From a virus, in IMG/VR virus record IMGVR_UViG_3300024336_000005, positions 124,001 through 188,000 of that record: a DNA stretch of 64,000 nucleotides; one strand, written 5' to 3'. Under the pieces are notes generated by a model. It worked only from the letters and a program-made list of their open reading frames with translations. It searched no databases and was not told the origin of the DNA. The translations under genes were made by a program, and so were the position numbers. Positions 32,594 to 45,359 of this stretch are shown here, piece after piece. Each line of letters opens with the position of its first letter. The stretch's first letter is position 1.

Positions 32594-32650
32594 GTGAAGC
32601 AATACAAAGAGTTAGTACAAGATGTACTAGAGAATGGAACCAAGAGATGA
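32594..32650 (+). pseudogene. thyA: Orphaned 5' fragment of thyA
   Basis: GTG-started frame encoding MKQYKELVQDVLENGTKR then TGA. This is the standard thymidylate synthase N-terminus up to just before the conserved DRTGTG. The HNH gene begins at its stop, and the functional thyA downstream has a second, different N-terminus. Most likely the original gene start left behind after HNH insertion. Confidence 0.75.
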
Positions 32651-33138
32651 AGTGGATTCCTGGGTTCGAGGATCGTTATGCAGTTTCGGCTAATGGTGAG
32701 ATCTGGTCATATGTAGGACACATCCCTAGAAAATTAAAGCCAGATCTTGTTAAAGGATATCATCGAGTCACATTGTTTGATTCAAACAAGCGAACTCGTA
32801 TGCCTGTCCATAGAATTGTCGCATTAACTTATATTTTGAATCCAGAAAACAGACCGCAAGTTAACCATATAGATGGCAACAAAATTAACAATGCTGCAAT
32901 AAATTTAGAGTGGATGACATCTAAAGAAAACTGCGCTCATGCTTTGGAAGAGGGTCTTTATAAAACTGCTGTTGGCGAACAATATAATAGATCGGATCTA
33001 ACTGACATGGAAGTATTACAAATACGATCTGTGTGGGAAGAGAATGCTCACACTCAAAAAGAACTCGCTAACATGTTTTCTACAACTAGGTCAAATATAA
33101 ATAATATTGTTAATAGATACACTTGGAAACATATATGA
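32647..33138 (+). CDS. HNH homing endonuclease inserted at the start of thyA
   Basis: 163 aa. NUMOD4-like start (MKWIPGFEDRYAVSANGEIW), HNH core (MPVHRIVALTYI, then VNHIDGNKINNAAINLEWM), and a C-terminal helix-turn-helix (TQKELANMFSTTRSNINNIV). ATGA overlaps at both ends couple it to the thyA fragment before and the intact thyA after. No intron surrounds it, so it is a freestanding, intronless homing gene. Confidence 0.88.
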   Translation: MKWIPGFEDRYAVSANGEIWSYVGHIPRKLKPDLVKGYHRVTLFDSNKRTRMPVHRIVALTYILNPENRPQVNHIDGNKINNAAINLEWMTSKENCAHALEEGLYKTAVGEQYNRSDLTDMEVLQIRSVWEENAHTQKELANMFSTTRSNINNIVNRYTWKHI

Positions 33139-33956
33139 TTCAATATATAGAACTCCTTCAACAAGTTTTAAGCGAAGGAGAATACCATCAAGATCGTACT
33201 GGCACCGGCCGTTGCTCTATCTTTGGTGTCCAAAAGCGATATGATTTGAACAATGGAGCCACCTTTCCTCTGGTCACAATCCGCAAATCTTTCTTTGCTA
33301 GTGCGGTCAAAGAAATCCTTTGGATGCTTAGGGGTGAGCGCAATGTTAAAACTTTGGGAGCAGGGTTCTGGAACCCTTGGGCTCGAGAGGGTGGAGACAT
33401 TGGGCCCTTGTATGGACATCAACTAAGACATTGGCCGGATGGGACTGAGGGTGGGAACGATCAAATTGCTAACGTTCTAGAGTCTCTGCGACAAAACCCC
33501 AAATCGCGCCGCCACATCATAACAACGTTCAATCCCCTTGACGCTCCTAAAGGCGTCCTCTATCCGTGTCATGGGATAGTCATACAATTCTATCCCAGTG
33601 CAGATGGGCAATTCCTGGATCTTCACATGGTGCAGCGATCACAAGATTTGATTCTTGGGTATCCTGTGAATGTTGCTGAGTATGCTCTGCTTCTTATGAT
33701 TTTTGCTAATCGACTAGGCAGAAAAGCCAGAACCCTAATTCACACTATTTCCGACTGTCATCTTTACTCAAATCACATCGAGGGTGTTAAAGAGATGCTC
33801 TCTAGAGAGCCGCTGAAGCTCCCTAGAGTGACGATAGCTGATAAGCCTATGCCTTACCCTGGTTGTGCCAGGGACGGCTCTGTATTGGAGCCTGAGGATG
33901 TACAACTGATAGGATATGAACACCATGGAAGAATCAAGTTCCCCATTGCAGTCTGA
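33135..33956 (+). CDS. thyA: Thymidylate synthase
   Basis: 273 aa. QDRTGTGRCSIFG near residue 25, WMLRGERN, catalytic Cys in VLYPCHG, and RSQDLILGYPVNVAEYALL (dUMP/folate site). Converts dUMP to dTMP using methylene-tetrahydrofolate; the DHFR at 36913 would recycle the folate. The first 18 codons (MIQYIELLQQVLSEGEYH) duplicate the role of the orphan fragment at 32594 but differ in sequence, so this 5' end probably arrived with the HNH gene. Confidence 0.95.
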   Translation: MIQYIELLQQVLSEGEYHQDRTGTGRCSIFGVQKRYDLNNGATFPLVTIRKSFFASAVKEILWMLRGERNVKTLGAGFWNPWAREGGDIGPLYGHQLRHWPDGTEGGNDQIANVLESLRQNPKSRRHIITTFNPLDAPKGVLYPCHGIVIQFYPSADGQFLDLHMVQRSQDLILGYPVNVAEYALLLMIFANRLGRKARTLIHTISDCHLYSNHIEGVKEMLSREPLKLPRVTIADKPMPYPGCARDGSVLEPEDVQLIGYEHHGRIKFPIAV

Positions 33957-39091: not shown

Positions 39092-40084
39092 ATGAAAGAC
39101 TTTGTACATCTTCACCTGCACACTAAGTTCAGCCTACAAGATGGTACCACTGAGCCTGAAGGGCTCATGAAAAAGTGTGCCGATCATGGGATGAAGTCCG
39201 TTGGAGTGACAGATCATGGGAATATGGCAGGGATGTGGGATTGTGCTAAGTACGCTAAGCAGTATGGCATTAATCTAATCCCTGGCAATGAATTCTATGT
39301 TGTTCCTGATGCACAAAAGAGCAGGGGGAATGATTGGCGGAAGGGGAAGTCCTCTCATCTTGGACTTCTTGCTTATAGTCAGACCGGTTGGGATAATCTG
39401 TTGAGGCTTACTGCGTTATCGAATCTTGAGGGATTCTATAACGAACCTCGGATAGACTATAGGATGCTCAGAGAGAACTCCGAAGGATTGTGGTGTATGT
39501 CTGGCTGCCTCGGCGGCTTCATAAATACAGCCATTAAGAATAATCAATCCCCAAGGTTTGCGGTAGATATGCTGCATAGTATCTTTGGAGATAGGCTATC
39601 TCTTGAGATACAGGTGAACCCAATACCTGACCAGCAGATTCTTAATGATGAAGTGATAGCAATTCATCATGCTACAAAGATTCCCCTCGTTGCTACCGTT
39701 GATGCTCACTACTTAGATAAGACTGATAGCCACAACCAGGACATCCTGTTTGCAATGCAGTTAGGGAAATCCCTAGAGGACCCAGAGAGGCTGAAGATGC
39801 CTCCAGAAGAGCACTCTGTTGAAACCCCAGAGGAAGCCATCAAGAGGTTCACAGATAAGTATGGGAACCTTGGATTGGAGGCTTGTCGGAGGACGGTAGA
39901 GATTGGAGACAACTCTCACTCAGAGATTACTTACCAAAGTAAGAGCTATAAAATTCCCACCCTTGATGTTGCAGCACAGCCAGACTTCCAAGAGTTTCTT
40001 AAATGGAAGACAGGCTGTGAATGTCACACCTCAGACAAAGGGGAGTGCTTAGTACATGGAAAAGCCTGTGGGCATAACCACTAG
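39092..40084 (+). CDS. dnaE: Stand-alone PHP domain of DNA polymerase III alpha
   Basis: 330 aa. FVHLHLHTKFSLQDG, VGVTDHGNMAG, GNEFYVV and VATVDAHYLD are the PHP metal motifs of DnaE. In ordinary DnaE this domain is fused to the palm; here it stops and ends in a Cys/His-rich tail (CECHTSDKGECLVHGKACGH), a likely zinc site that could dock it to the rest. Palm and fingers start 0.7 kb downstream. The PHP domain stabilises or proofreads for family C polymerases. Confidence 0.9.
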   Translation: MKDFVHLHLHTKFSLQDGTTEPEGLMKKCADHGMKSVGVTDHGNMAGMWDCAKYAKQYGINLIPGNEFYVVPDAQKSRGNDWRKGKSSHLGLLAYSQTGWDNLLRLTALSNLEGFYNEPRIDYRMLRENSEGLWCMSGCLGGFINTAIKNNQSPRFAVDMLHSIFGDRLSLEIQVNPIPDQQILNDEVIAIHHATKIPLVATVDAHYLDKTDSHNQDILFAMQLGKSLEDPERLKMPPEEHSVETPEEAIKRFTDKYGNLGLEACRRTVEIGDNSHSEITYQSKSYKIPTLDVAAQPDFQEFLKWKTGCECHTSDKGECLVHGKACGHNH

Positions 40085-40107
40085 AAATAAAACTATAGGA
40101 GATTAGC

Positions 40108-40401
40108 ATGTTAGAAGTTACCCCCGCACCTGGATTCGCCATGGTGACACTTGAGAAGGACGCACAGACAAAGTCTGGACTTTTTGTTGCAGGCACACAG
40201 GACGGCCTAAAGAGAGGTCGCGTAGAAGGCCTTGGCCCTGAGTTTGTCACAGACCATGGTGTTTCAATCGCCTTCCCAGCAGATGTTGGAGATGTCGTTC
40301 TATTTGACAAGGGAACTGAATTTTCAATCCCGGGGCAAGGAAGCTACTACTTCGTGTGGCGGAACAACACTGTTGGCAGGATCGTCGAGTCAGGAGAGTG
40401 A
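40108..40401 (+). CDS. groES: GroES/Cpn10-like co-chaperonin
   Basis: 97 aa, AGGAGA upstream. PAPGFAMVTLEKD, TKSGLFV, GDVVLFDKGTEFSI and YYFVWRNNTVGRIVE follow the Cpn10 barrel. Phage GroES analogues replace the host cap on GroEL for folding capsid or other phage proteins. It sits between two pieces of dnaE. Confidence 0.82.
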   Translation: MLEVTPAPGFAMVTLEKDAQTKSGLFVAGTQDGLKRGRVEGLGPEFVTDHGVSIAFPADVGDVVLFDKGTEFSIPGQGSYYFVWRNNTVGRIVESGE

Positions 40402-40727
40402 CAGATTCACTTGGGAATGAATACAGAGTGGGAGATATACTCTTGTACGTCGCCGGGGGAGATCAGGCTCGGCCACAGATTGCCATGTTTGTTGAAGCTT
40501 ATATGAATGCAGATGGAGATCCTAAAAATAGGTTCCTTTTTGCGAACCGTAGAACGTGGAATCGAGATCAAAATAACGTGTCTGTCAGAACTATTGGACG
40601 GCCCTGGAGGGCCCGCTTGAAGCGGCTCTCTGATGTCCTTCCTCATGACAAGGCCCTCGAGGCAAGAGATTTCTTTGAGTATGCCCTGGAGCTAAAGGGA
40701 TACGAGCTTGGGCTGCCTCTTCTTTGA
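40398..40727 (+). CDS. Hypothetical protein, 109 aa
   Basis: GTG start overlapping the groES stop (GTGA). MTDSLGNEYRVGDILLYVAG and a basic middle (RRTWNRDQN, then WRARLKRLSD). Not recognised. Confidence 0.6.
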   Translation: MTDSLGNEYRVGDILLYVAGGDQARPQIAMFVEAYMNADGDPKNRFLFANRRTWNRDQNNVSVRTIGRPWRARLKRLSDVLPHDKALEARDFFEYALELKGYELGLPLL

Positions 40728-40774
40728 GGTATGATGTCAGAATGGAGAGGTCTCAGAGAGAAGGAGAGGTTCAA

Positions 40775-41600
40775 ATGAAGAGTGATGATCAGAACTCCTA
40801 CCTTTTATTTTGGGCCCAGAAGGGGCTTAAGGCAAGAGGGCTCTGGGATGACCAGGTCTATAAGGATAGGGTAGATTACGAGTGGAAAGTTATCTCTCGT
40901 ATGGGGTTTGCAGGATACTATCTTGTAGTCGCTGACTACGTGGCTTGGGCCCGTAGTCAAAGAATCCCAGTGGGGCCTGGACGTGGTTCAGGTGCTGGCT
41001 CTTTGATTGCCTATGCTGTAGGCATAACGGATGTGGATCCCATTAAGTGGGGCCTAATGTTTGAGAGGTTCTTGAACCCAGGTAGAGTCTCCATGCCTGA
41101 CTTTGACATTGACTTTGGAAAGAGAGATCGACTCAAGGTTTTTGACTACCTGTCAGAGAAATACGGACATCAGAACGTTTGTCAGATTGGTACTATTGGC
41201 ACCATGAAGGCAAAGCTTGCGGTCAAAGATGTGGGGAGAACCCTTGGACTTGATCCCTCTGAGCTGGAAAGATTCTCTAGCTTAATTCCCGACGAAGAAA
41301 GAGGAGGACAGGGCGATCATGCTATCACCTTGAGCCTCCTCTTGGATCCTCCCAGGGAGCTTGTTAAGGCTCACGGAGAGGCTCTTGCAAAGTTCAGAAC
41401 TGCTTATGAATTCGACAAAGACTTTCATAGAGTTGTCAACCTTGCTGTAGAGCTGGAAGGAATCCCAAAGAGTTACGGGGTGCACGCAGCTGGAGTTGTC
41501 ATCGGAATTGATTCTCTATGGGGAGATATTCCTCTTAGGAAATCAAATGATGGAAGGCCTGTTAGTCAGTGGACTGACAAGCAGGTCGAAAAGATGGGGT
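40775..41600 (+). CDS. dnaE: Family C DNA polymerase (DnaE) N-extein, exon 1
   Basis: ATG 40775 has AAGGAGAGG upstream and gives MKSDDQNSYLLFW. GPGRGSGAGSLIAYAVGITD and MPDFDIDFGKRDR (two catalytic Asp) are the DnaE palm; GVHAAGVVI and QWTDKQVEKMG follow. The frame closes shortly after codon GGG at 41597-41599; the expected VKFDFLGLRTLD resumes at 42431, so an intron is removed. Exon 1 ends with U at 41600. Confidence 0.92.
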
Positions 41601-41742
41601 TAGCTTATTAGCCCCTGTATGGAGCAATCCGTACAGCAAACAAGGTGAACCCCAAAGCAAAGGGGGTGTGCTGCATCTGCAGCGCTAACAGGGGAACCTA
41701 AGTGAGCGAGTCTCATAAGGCAATCCTGTGCTAAGCTTTTGA

Positions 41743-41771
41743 TTGATTAGGTATTGCAAAATTGATATAAT
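41743..41771 (+). promoter_or_regulatory. Possible promoter for the intron endonuclease
   Basis: TTGATT, 17 nt, TATAAT, ending 27 nt before the ATG of the intron HNH gene, itself preceded by an AGGAG. Phage group I introns often express their endonuclease from a separate promoter, but AT-rich intron sequence can mimic one. Confidence 0.4.
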
Positions 41772-41798
41772 AGGAGCTCAACAAACAGGAGCTGCGTT

Positions 41799-42335
41799 AT
41801 GCAAAAGTTAGAAGGATTTGAGAAGGTAGAATCTGAAGGAATTTTGGGAGAGTATTATATTCATCCAGACGGAAGGATCTACAGAGATTACGGACATAGA
41901 ATAAAATTTCTTTCCGAGAGGCCAAATGCTTATGGCTATAGTCGAATAAGCTTGCTTCATCAGGATGGACGTAGAGTGGATCGAATGATGCATCGATTAT
42001 TGATGTTAACATTTGTCCCAAATCCAGATAATAAGCCACAAGTCAATCATAAAGACGGAGATAAAAGCAACAATCAGCTTTCCAATTTGGAATGGGTTAC
42101 AGATCGAGAAAATAAGCTTCATTCACATAGAGTGCTTGGAGCCAAATCTAGTGACAAAAGTTGTTTCTTATTTTATTTTGGGGGCTTTGTTCAAAGGTTT
42201 CCAAACATCCAAGCTGCTTGTAACTATGCAGCTAAAAAATATGGGTGCTCCTCAAAGTCTTTATGTAAATATTACACATCTAATGGATGTGCAATTATTA
42301 CAGAAGAAAGTGCAACGACTATCCTAACGGAGTAG
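41799..42335 (+). CDS. Intron-encoded HNH homing endonuclease
   Basis: 178 aa. Residues about 15-60 are NUMOD4-like (GEYYIHPDGRIYRDYGHRIK), then the HNH core (MMHRLLMLTFVPNPDNKPQV, NHKDGDKSNNQLSNLEWVT) and a NUMOD1-like C-terminus (VQRFPNIQAACNYAAKKYG). The last codons lie over the intron's P7 strand. It would cut intronless dnaE alleles to spread the intron. Confidence 0.88.
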   Translation: MQKLEGFEKVESEGILGEYYIHPDGRIYRDYGHRIKFLSERPNAYGYSRISLLHQDGRRVDRMMHRLLMLTFVPNPDNKPQVNHKDGDKSNNQLSNLEWVTDRENKLHSHRVLGAKSSDKSCFLFYFGGFVQRFPNIQAACNYAAKKYGCSSKSLCKYYTSNGCAIITEESATTILTE

Positions 42336-42428
42336 GGGGGGTATTGCTCCTCTCGAAGCGCCTTGATCTCTGAATCAATACAGAGAATATGATATAGTCT
42401 GTGCCACTAGAAATAGTGGAATAACACG

Positions 42429-44149
42429 TTGTAAAGTTCGACTTTCTGGGACTCCGCACACTTGATGTAATTGAAGACGCCTGTCGTAGCATAGAGAAAA
42501 GAACTGGAGTGACTATTGATTGGGAACAGACTCCCGAGGATGATGGTCCTACATTCGATATGCTCAGCAGAGGAGACACCTTTGGTGTCTTCCAGCTGGA
42601 GGCATCTGGTATCTCTGGGTTTACCAAGGGATATAAGCCAAGGTCTATCGATGACATCTCAATCATCTCAGCTCTATACAGACCTGGTCCGCTGGATAAT
42701 GGGATGGTAGATGCCATTCTGTCTGTCCGCAAGGGGAAGAAGATTGAAGAGAGTCCTGTTGATGTCATTAAAGAAATCCTTAAGGATACGAATGGGGTTC
42801 TGACATATCAGGAACAAGTATTAGCAATATCAAGGGAGATGGCTGGGTTTACCCTGTCGGGTGCTGATCTATTGAGGCGCGCGATTGGCAAGAAGCTGCC
42901 CGAAGAGATGCAAGCGCAGGAGCAAAACTTTGTTGATGGCTCCGTAGAGAAGGGGTATCCAAAGCATCAAGCTTTGGAAGTATTTGAAATCATTAAGAAA
43001 TTCGCTGACTATTGTTTGTCATATGATACTAAGGTATTGACCGATAAGGGGCCTCTCTCAATTGGTCATATTGTAGAAAATCAGCTAGAGGTTTCTGTTT
43101 ATTCTATTGATGAGCATGGGCTTGTCTACTCTCAGCCGGTGGCTCAGTGGCATGACAGGGGCATAAGAGAAGTCTTTGAATACAAGCTTGAGGATGGCTC
43201 TGTCATCCGAGCGACCGAAGATCATAAGTTTATGACCGTCGATGGAGATATGCTTGCTATTGAAACAATCTTCCTGCAGAATAGGGATATGCTTGTCATT
43301 GAAACAGGCAAGATTCAAATAGGGGAGATTGAAATGAAGCCTTATAATAAACTAAATGACCTGGACAAACAACTTGTCCAACGACTGTACTATGAAGGAT
43401 TATCCTTTGAGGACATCTCAAAGGAAGCTGTGGTATCTCAACGTTCTGTTAGTCGTGTTTTGCAAGAGGCTAATATTAACACCAGAAGGAAAAACCGTTA
43501 TACCCTTAATGAAAGCTTCTTCTGTGGAGCATATGATCATTATGAATGTGCATATTTTTTAGGCCTACTGGCAGCAGATGGATGCGTTACTCATAAGGAT
43601 TACATCGCCCTCCAGCTTATTGATGAAGAACTTGTCTTATGGTTTCGCAAAGCGATCGAATACTCAGGAGAAGTTCGGCTTATCCTTGGCGAGGAGCGAA
43701 AGCCCCCTGGCCAAGATGCCTATAGGGTGAACTTTAGCTCTGCCATAATGTCAGAGGAACTTCGTTCATATGGAATCATTGCCGGAAGACATCTTCAAGC
43801 AATTCCGAAGTTAGAAGATTCAATTGTGCCTCATTTTATTCGAGGGTATTTTGATGGAGATGGATGTGTTTACTTAAGGCCAGAGGGTTCTGGTGGAGTT
43901 GTTCATATTGTAGCCTCCGAGGCGTTTTGCGAATCGCTTAAAGAATACTTTGGATTCGGAACAATTAGTTCACATCCCAGTGGTATGTATTATTGGAGGA
44001 TCTTTGCAAAAAAACATGTGAATGTTTTTTATGAAGCCCTATATGATTCTGATGGTTCAGAGACCCTGTGCCTTAATCGCAAAAAGCAACTAATGGAAGC
44101 CTTCCTACGGAGCTACAAGTATGAAAATTGTTGGAAAGCAAAGGATTGA
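42429..44149 (+). CDS. dnaE: DnaE exon 2: rest of N-extein plus N-terminal intein half with LAGLIDADG domain
   Basis: Codons from 42431 continue DnaE (VKFDFLGLRTLDVIEDA, FGVFQLEASGISG, ALYRPGPLDNGMVDAI) to FADY. At 43013 the intein begins: CLSYDTKVLT, RATEDHKFM (block B), then a helix-turn-helix and two LAGLIDADG motifs (FLGLLAADGCVTH and FIRGYFDGDGCVY). The frame stops at 44149 before splicing blocks F and G, which are in the next frame. N-extein 470 aa, N-intein 378 aa. Confidence 0.9.
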
Positions 44150-44225
44150 GGATCAATCAGTCTATGATATTGGAGTAGAAAAAGACCATAACTTTCTTCT
44201 TGCTGATGGACAGGTTGCTTCCAAT
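43013..44225 (+). mobile_element. DnaE intein, broken into two overlapping reading frames
   Basis: Inserted between FADY and CFNKSHS, the insertion point of naturally split cyanobacterial DnaE inteins, and closely resembling them (PVAQWHDRG, EDGSVIRATEDHKFMTVDGD; C-part VYDIGVEKDHNF, ending VASN before Cys+1). Unlike those it retains a LAGLIDADG endonuclease, in the N half. The halves overlap by 29 nt in different frames, so a functional polymerase needs protein trans-splicing (or a frameshift plus cis-splicing). Confidence 0.85.
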
Positions 44226-45359
44226 TGCTTTAACAAAAGCCATAGTGTGGCCTATTCAATGCTTTCATATAGAACAGCTTATCTTAAGTGTCACTATCCT
44301 TCTGACTTCTATGCTGCAGAGCTTACGAGCCACGAAGGGGAAGTCAAGAAGCTTCTCCCAGCAATGGCAGATGCTCGAGCACACCACATGAAGATCAAGA
44401 CTCCTGATATTAATCTTAGTGAGGAGTGCTTTACGGCGACCGCCAGACATGAAATAAGGTTTGGACTTGCTGGAATTAAGGGGCTTGGGACAAAGGCTCT
44501 TCAGTCTATTATGAATGAAAGAGCCAATGGGAGTTTTGAGTCTATCACTGGCTTATGCAAGAGGCTCTCCTCTTCTGAGATTAAGTCGAATAATCTCACA
44601 GCCTTAGCAAGGTCTGGTGCATTTTCCCAAATAGAAACTGGAATGAACACAGCAGAGCTTGCAGAGTATGCCGTTAACACAGCGATTGCTCTTCGTAGCT
44701 ATCATAAAGATGAGAAGAAAGGCCAGGTGTCTATCTTTTCTGTTATGACTGAAGCTCCAGAAAATGAGATTAATGTTCAGAGACCGTCAATTCATTTGGA
44801 TGATGGAGATGAACTGGAGCTAGAGAAGGAAGCCTTGGGCTTTTATATCTCAGGATCTCCTCTGGATAAGTACAATACTATTAAGGAAAGATCCCATATA
44901 GATGAAATTGAAAGCTTAGAAGTTGATGGCATTTGGGTATCAGTTCTTGCCAGGATAACAGAGCTTAAGATTAGAAATGGAAAGAGGGGAAGCTTTGCAA
45001 TACTACAGCTAGAAGATACTAGCGGCAGCATTGGAGCTAAGATTTGGTCTAACAATATGGCTGAAGCTCGTCCATACTTAGAAGAAGGTAAGAGTGTTGT
45101 TGTCAGAGGAAAGACAAACTCCTACAAAGGACTTGAAATTGTTGTGGATTCTATTGTAGACGCTGAATCAGAAGTGAAAAGACTTTTGAAGAGAGTGGTC
45201 ATTCATAGACTTGATTCCACGATTTTAAATACACTCTTGCAATTGCCTGCAGGAAATGTTCCTATAGATCTTGAGCTTTCAAATGGCCAGATCAAACAAC
45301 GACTTGGATTTTTTGAAATCCAACCCCACATGCTGAGGGAACTGAATGAGATGGACTGA
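44121..45359 (+). CDS. dnaE: C-terminal intein fragment plus DnaE C-extein
   Basis: Own ATG with GGAG at 8-nt spacing. Residues 1-35 are the C-intein (MKIVGKQRIEDQSVYDIGVE ... VASN), nearly the same length as the split cyanobacterial one. Cys36 is the +1 residue and CFNKSHSVAYSMLSYRTAYL restarts DnaE. Then come an HhH-type region (FGLAGIKGLGTKAL) and an OB fold (GIWVSVLARITELKIRNGKR). The 377-aa extein with the 470-aa N part makes an 847-aa polymerase; with the PHP protein the total equals ordinary DnaE length. Confidence 0.9.
   Translation: MKIVGKQRIEDQSVYDIGVEKDHNFLLADGQVASNCFNKSHSVAYSMLSYRTAYLKCHYPSDFYAAELTSHEGEVKKLLPAMADARAHHMKIKTPDINLSEECFTATARHEIRFGLAGIKGLGTKALQSIMNERANGSFESITGLCKRLSSSEIKSNNLTALARSGAFSQIETGMNTAELAEYAVNTAIALRSYHKDEKKGQVSIFSVMTEAPENEINVQRPSIHLDDGDELELEKEALGFYISGSPLDKYNTIKERSHIDEIESLEVDGIWVSVLARITELKIRNGKRGSFAILQLEDTSGSIGAKIWSNNMAEARPYLEEGKSVVVRGKTNSYKGLEIVVDSIVDAESEVKRLLKRVVIHRLDSTILNTLLQLPAGNVPIDLELSNGQIKQRLGFFEIQPHMLRELNEMD

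Follow-up and report, generated by a model that had tools for sequence, protein, structure and literature searches.

The thyA locus of a 64,000-nucleotide stretch of viral DNA (the window, which is part of the 204 kb IMG/VR virus record IMGVR_UViG_3300024336_000005) appears to be a splice-free homing element that brings with it a foreign gene end: an HNH endonuclease would cut thyA, repair would import the HNH gene together with a diverged thyA start, and the native start would be left behind as an orphan. We put the probability of this reading at roughly 0.84. Two homologous elements, L346 and L258, carry much of the argument, and in both of these alignment with relatives shows the displaced piece to be native and the attached end to be foreign.

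Three open reading frames (ORFs) on the + strand make up the locus. The first is an orphan of 18 codons plus TGA (positions 32594–32650 of the window; translated as VKQYKELVQDVLENGTKR), with a GTG start and its stop at 32648–32650; judging from the homologous elements it would be the displaced native thyA start, and it probably serves as a left homology arm rather than being mere debris. The orphan stop and the start of the next gene share an ATGA (32647–32650), and this left junction, just before the position of the ThyA DRTGTG codons, is the putative point of insertion and cleavage. The second frame (32647–33138) encodes a 163-residue homing endonuclease-like protein with an HNH_3 domain and a putative NUMOD4 motif, similar to I-HmuI and with an extra C-terminal region, and its stop lies in a second ATGA (33135–33138) from which a complete thyA gene starts (33135–33956; 273 residues, beginning MIQYIELLQQVLSEGEYHQDRTGTG). 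The thyA product matches Pfam Thymidylat_synt over its whole length (E 8.5e-84) and retains the residues that are invariant across nine aligned ThyA proteins. The gene is probably a chimera, in which codons 1–19 (33135–33191) are a replacement 5′ end that composition and codon score suggest is foreign and was brought by the element, and the body from the DRTGTG codons onward (33192–33956) is native as judged from its G+C content (GC), its GC at third codon positions (GC3) and its phage-like codon usage. The initial annotation had described this layout of an 18-codon GTG/TGA ThyA N-terminus, an HNH gene and an intact thyA joined by ATGA overlaps, and reading and translating the DNA confirms it; the two starts, which it took for different versions of the same segment, match at 26 of 45 nucleotides (nt). 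Another IMG/VR contig matches with 100% identity across the 10.8 kb compared, which makes a one-off assembly error less likely, although it is perhaps not independent of the first.

The HNH protein matches the Pfam HNH_3 family (E 8e-6) with 25.8 bits, over the curated cut-off of 24.8, and NUMOD4 (E 1e-4) with 22.9 bits, slightly under the cut-off of 23.4. Its sole sequence match in the PDB, and its nearest solved protein, is I-HmuI (1u3e; E 6e-16), which aligns over residues 2–115 with the HNH segment included, but the window locus differs from that system in lacking a detectable intron. No HNH relative adjoins thyA among the loci of the first HNH scan. We note that in Mudcatviruses (Arthrobacter phage Correa, L044:411–1486, and also L045–L047) two tandem HNH-annotated genes joined by ATGA overlaps lie immediately 5′ of thyA, and no orphan was noticed there.

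The orphan is a ThyA N-terminus

The orphan is a real ThyA N-terminus and not a chance resemblance. On a position-specific matrix built from 76 distinct ThyA N-termini, drawn from about 85 other ThyA loci, its score of 33.2 bits (38.2 when the GTG is counted as Met) is the highest among 58,747 stop-free six-frame 18-mers of the window; the true thyA start scores 26.5 bits and the next-best 18-mer only 8.3. Aligned with those loci it corresponds to ThyA residues 1–18 and ends one residue ahead of DRTGTG, a motif conserved throughout the ThyA family. Codons 2–15 of the orphan and of the thyA start include three that are identical, five with synonymous differences and six that are non-synonymous, and no comparable orphan start fragment is present at any of the approximately 85 other thyA loci examined.

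A different explanation for the 18-codon ORF is that it is functional, acting either as a regulatory leader peptide or as a first exon joined to another sequence by splicing or frameshifting. In favor of this, its start codon has been kept and its stop overlaps the start of the HNH gene; against it, Rfam identifies no intron or regulatory RNA family in the region at gathering threshold, the ATGA overlaps at both junctions leave no spacer for a ribozyme, thyA is complete without the orphan, and such a leader is missing from the other thyA loci. We consider a functional leader very improbable.

Three known arrangements were also considered and rejected. A group I intron carrying the HNH gene lacks both an Rfam match in the region and the room for a ribozyme. 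An intein would require a continuous frame, and here there is an orphan stop, a separate HNH frame and a thyA start of its own. A free-standing endonuclease of the T4 type would leave its target undisturbed, whereas here the thyA start would have been displaced and replaced.

Composition of the thyA 5′ end

The first 19 codons of thyA have a GC of 32% and a GC3 of 21%, compared with 36% and 29% for the HNH gene, and from codon 20 onward the values are 48% and 45% and phage-like. In a comparison with the opening 19 codons of 72 further window genes, the thyA start ranks highest for HNH-like codon usage and second lowest for GC; the codon usage of the orphan is phage-like. The composition of codons 1–19 is suggestive of a foreign 5′ end, though it does not amount to proof.

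Several points weigh against a foreign start and the homing element that would have brought it. The compositional evidence comes from 19 codons only, and the GC change point within thyA alone has a permutation p of 0.09. Scans of viral contigs and genomes returned no close HNH-less relatives of the phage, finding only the identical contig and ThyA proteins that are at most 47% identical. The phage ThyA is itself divergent, with no more than 47% amino acid identity to any sequence found, and a tree of ThyA bodies gives it no settled place. The thyA pair also scores 38 in the generic flank test described below, under the cut-off, and is strong only by the ThyA-specific matrix. Queries of 40 residues taken from the orphan and from the new start return overlapping sets of matches at about 60%, which does not decide either way on an affinity to different phage groups.

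Comparison with uninterrupted relatives

A comparison at a 5′ end is provided by the helicase element L346, for which a scan of the helicase identified 19 relatives with 81–89% identity. Here an orphan (MELRPYQDEIAKKATKILKECGFVYLSMEV, ending in a stop) is followed, after a spacer of about 117 nt, by an HNH gene and then by a helicase gene that begins MFKIRDYQERIAKEALVILKEKGFVYLSMQVRCGKT. The helicase gene of L491 is uninterrupted, and its native start is identical to the L346 orphan at 81 of 81 nt over the stretch compared, as well as over all 90 nt, whereas the present helicase start of L346 matches it at only 58 of 81. Among 14 uninterrupted relatives (L491 included) the orphan matches at 72–81 of 81 positions and the present L346 start at 56–61; the 13 other than L491 match the orphan at 72–80. 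The insertion point falls in the Walker A motif, SMEV-RTGKT, where it separates V30 from R31 directly behind GAAGTT. Identity between L346 and L491 is 98% over the 200 nt upstream, 67–73% in the first 30 codons, 83% in codons 31–40, and 97–100% in codons 41–100. By these comparisons the displaced piece of L346 is the native start, the attached start is foreign, and the body is native. A related phage, L490, has an identical 117-nt spacer behind an orphan of equal length (L490:807–1504 compared with L346:228–943), but its HNH protein is only about 65% identical to that of L346 and the foreign-looking sequence extends deeper into the helicase; these differences suggest separate transfer events with differing conversion tracts.

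The L346 comparison bears on a further explanation, in which a local duplication of the thyA 5′ end was followed by insertion of the HNH gene between the two starts and by their later divergence. There are indeed two recognizable ThyA starts in the window, in the same order and on the same strand. However, they differ at 19 of 45 nt, with many of the differences synonymous, and it is the non-functional copy that is the more canonical. The copies also differ in codon usage, with the attached one departing toward the HNH gene, and in L346 it is the orphan that is still identical to the native gene and the attached start that has diverged. A local duplication thus seems most unlikely.

The equivalent comparison at a 3′ end is provided by L258, a prophage-like locus of Pseudomonas japonica. 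Its in-frame gene tail matches relatives at only 36–41 of 75 nt, whereas for the displaced piece downstream of the HNH gene the figure is 56–71 of 75, the best being 71 of 75 nt and 25 of 25 residues. Compared with four relatives, the gene body is mostly 70–97% identical to about residue 130 and then 23–60% over most of the tail. As judged from these alignments L258 is a mirror image of L346, with the native 3′ end displaced, a foreign in-frame tail, and a native body.

These two elements also help in weighing whether the whole of the present thyA is foreign, which would be the case if an HNH-thyA cassette had landed in a native thyA and the remainder of the native gene had been deleted. The divergence of the entire ThyA, set beside an orphan that looks mainstream, is in keeping with such a replacement, and the ParB locus L369 is possibly an instance of one, as its orphan and downstream gene resemble different ParB types. 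Yet the compositional break in thyA is at about codon 20 and not at the end of the gene, and in L346 and L258 the foreign part is the gene end only. The segment CHGIVIQF, among 87 ThyA sequences, is common only to the window ThyA and to L003, a phage fragment that has DHFR, DHH and PhoH genes in the vicinity, and this too is against a wholly foreign gene. We regard replacement of the whole gene as unlikely, and favor replacement of the thyA start by a homing element.

Recurrence among HNH relatives

We gathered 299 distinct relatives of the HNH protein from viral contigs and genomes, of which 227 could be tested for displaced starts and 204 for displaced ends. The test compares the protein sequence just 5′ of the HNH gene with the start of the next gene downstream, or the reverse for ends, with the expectation taken from 4,000 random pairings; this restricted form replaced a wide-window flank score that was too noisy. 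Six of the 227 score at least 48 for the 5′ type (0 expected) and seven of the 204 score at least 50 for the 3′ type (0.1 expected). One entry in each list, L287, is discounted; it scores highly but its flanks are not coding-like. Overall, about a dozen of the 299 relatives have a complete gene on one side and a displaced fragment of that gene's start or end on the other.

With gene names read from the sequences rather than from a profile search, the 5′-type cases are the helicases L346 and L265, the dUTPase L374, the methylase L341, a protein with a CPHC motif (L310), and the ParB locus L369, which has a score of 47 and is counted among the ends too. The 3′-type cases are L258, the integrase-like L244, L453, L296 and L274, with L360 a weaker one. 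In L374 (1950–2516) the displaced dUTPase start runs in frame into the HNH gene, and its residues form the N-terminus of the HNH protein. Genome searches for empty-site relatives of L265 (Treponema) and L274 (Blautia) found no close ones.

The HNH genes of the Seuratviruses VogelGryff and slur01 (L291:1995–2501 and L292:610–1116) were examined as candidates for gene-end replacement and rejected, as there is no orphan. Each lies between an exonuclease and a helicase gene with an ATGA overlapping the helicase start, and is missing from STP-SP5 (L294). These are ordinary free-standing insertions and a counter-example to the pattern above, and together with STP-SP5 they form a natural pair for studying insertion of that kind.

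Proposed mechanism

We propose that the HNH enzyme would cleave an unoccupied thyA gene, at the conserved codons immediately ahead of DRTGTG. Repair of the break from a donor phage would copy in the HNH gene together with the diverged first ~19 codons of thyA. The recipient's first 18 codons would remain on the upstream side as a short ORF, the orphan, and the gene body would gain a new in-frame start such that ThyA is complete without an intron or an intein. The orphan and the gene body would then serve as left and right homology arms, and two-sided repair of the usual kind could carry the next round of homing. Both the divergence of the 5′ end and the splitting of the target site would protect the occupied gene from the enzyme, and the HNH protein and ThyA would probably be expressed by translational coupling at the ATGA overlaps. 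The common design would be a displaced native end, an HNH gene, and a foreign end on a native body, or the mirror image of this. Targeting of conserved codons by the enzyme fits the positions of the breaks, which lie at DRTGTG in ThyA and at Walker A in the L346 helicase. By analogy with the yeast WHO elements and the fungal mitochondrial mobile ORFs described below, we infer the cutting of thyA, the import by repair of the HNH gene and start, and the protection given by the diverged start; the direction of thyA transfer and the coupled expression of HNH and ThyA are likewise inferred.

The initial annotation had proposed that the HNH gene came with a donor 5′ end, that the native start was left as the orphan, and that thyA was kept complete, and the composition, the codon usage, and the fit of the orphan to ThyA lend this indirect support. 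It had also anticipated that the orphan would match vertical relatives, and displaced pieces that do so are seen in the same-family elements L346 (5′) and L258 (3′). Its description of the event as intronless homing needs amending in one respect: in the classical form the endonuclease gene lies beside its target, and here it occupies a position within it, where the enzyme probably cuts.

Other features of the window

There are seven tRNA genes on the + strand between positions 1649 and 8121, as identified with Rfam. DnaE is seemingly split (39092–41611) into an N-terminal PHP-like ORF (39092–40084) and a next part starting at 40724, with a GroES-like ORF (40108–40401) and another small ORF between them. 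A second HNH gene (41799–42335) interrupts DnaE at 41611–42510, with non-coding flanks of about 190 and 100 nt that give the interruption an intron-like appearance; Rfam finds no group I intron in this interval at gathering threshold. Further downstream (42509–45359) there is an intein-like insertion with a change of frame near 44121–44149, and this part is either frameshifted, misassembled, or read by a shift.

Relationship to known systems and significance

Phage homing endonucleases are usually sorted into those that are intron-borne, those that are intein-borne, and those that are free-standing next to their targets. The arrangement described here would add a further lifestyle, in which the endonuclease gene resides within its target gene without splicing and supplies a replacement gene end as the price.

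A close parallel in operation is with the WHO elements at FBA1 in Torulaspora and Lachancea (Coughlan et al. 2020; PMC7282813), for which experiments have shown that the sensitive allele is cut and that the occupied one resists (WHO6), and for which the displaced fragment has been proposed to act as a recombination arm. In both systems an endonuclease gene lies between a complete target gene and a fragment of the same gene, there is no splicing, and the two versions of the gene end are strongly different in sequence; in the WHO elements the target gene is chimeric and the fragment is the displaced gene end of the recipient, as is probably the case in the window element too. The WHO elements differ in having a LAGLIDADG/HO-like enzyme with a zinc finger and in acting on the 3′ ends of yeast nuclear genes, whereas the window element has an HNH enzyme and occupies the 5′ end of a phage gene, with cleavage and resistance predicted. 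The window element thus resembles the WHO elements in operation without belonging to them. What is new here is a WHO-like mode of operation with an HNH enzyme, in phages and prophages, and at either gene end.

Mobile ORFs of fungal mitochondria, such as those in Glomus atp6, atp9, cox2 and nad3 (PMC3630166) and the Allomyces atp6 element (Paquin et al. 1994, as cited in PMC3630166), bring a foreign gene end and form a hybrid gene, with the displaced native end matching close relatives; they differ in their enzymes (of LAGLIDADG or GIY-YIG type in those of Glomus), in their mitochondrial location, and in replacing the carboxy-terminal end only. The seg and mob genes of T4, examples of intronless homing (PMC2988022), resemble the window HNH gene in being intron-free HNH or GIY-YIG genes with stop/start overlaps that suggest translational coupling, and in co-conversion of flanking sequence, as is proposed for the window, but they adjoin their target genes, whereas the window HNH gene is inside its target and would replace one end. 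The methylase of mycobacteriophage ShiLan may be another case. As described in the accessible passages of that paper (PMC11855218), a hidden HNH gene is inserted there with no recognizable intron or intein, and the insertion opens with 11 residues similar to the 11 that directly follow the insertion site, a repeat that the authors weighed as an intron signature. Those passages contain no proposal of gene-end replacement, and the element would fit a 3′-end version of the mechanism, although, unlike the window element, the ShiLan insertion reads through in the frame of the methylase.

The titles, abstracts and passages seen, from a literature collection in which subscription papers are mostly absent, contain no account of homing endonucleases of phages replacing gene ends. 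It seems likely to us that the phage and bacterial HNH proteins of this family include a recurring splice-free class located in important genes, with diverged replacement ends at the 5′ or 3′ side, in which the displaced native end supplies a homology arm and the new end confers immunity to cutting. If so, the class would be a natural counterpart of engineered homing-and-rescue drives. It would account for short orphan starts and odd chimeric ends that annotation would label as pseudogenes or misassemblies, and may account for the unexplained repeat in the ShiLan methylase element. It would also provide a simple route for swapping gene ends between phages, and the empty (L491) and occupied (L346) helicase alleles make cleavage, immunity and homing directly testable.
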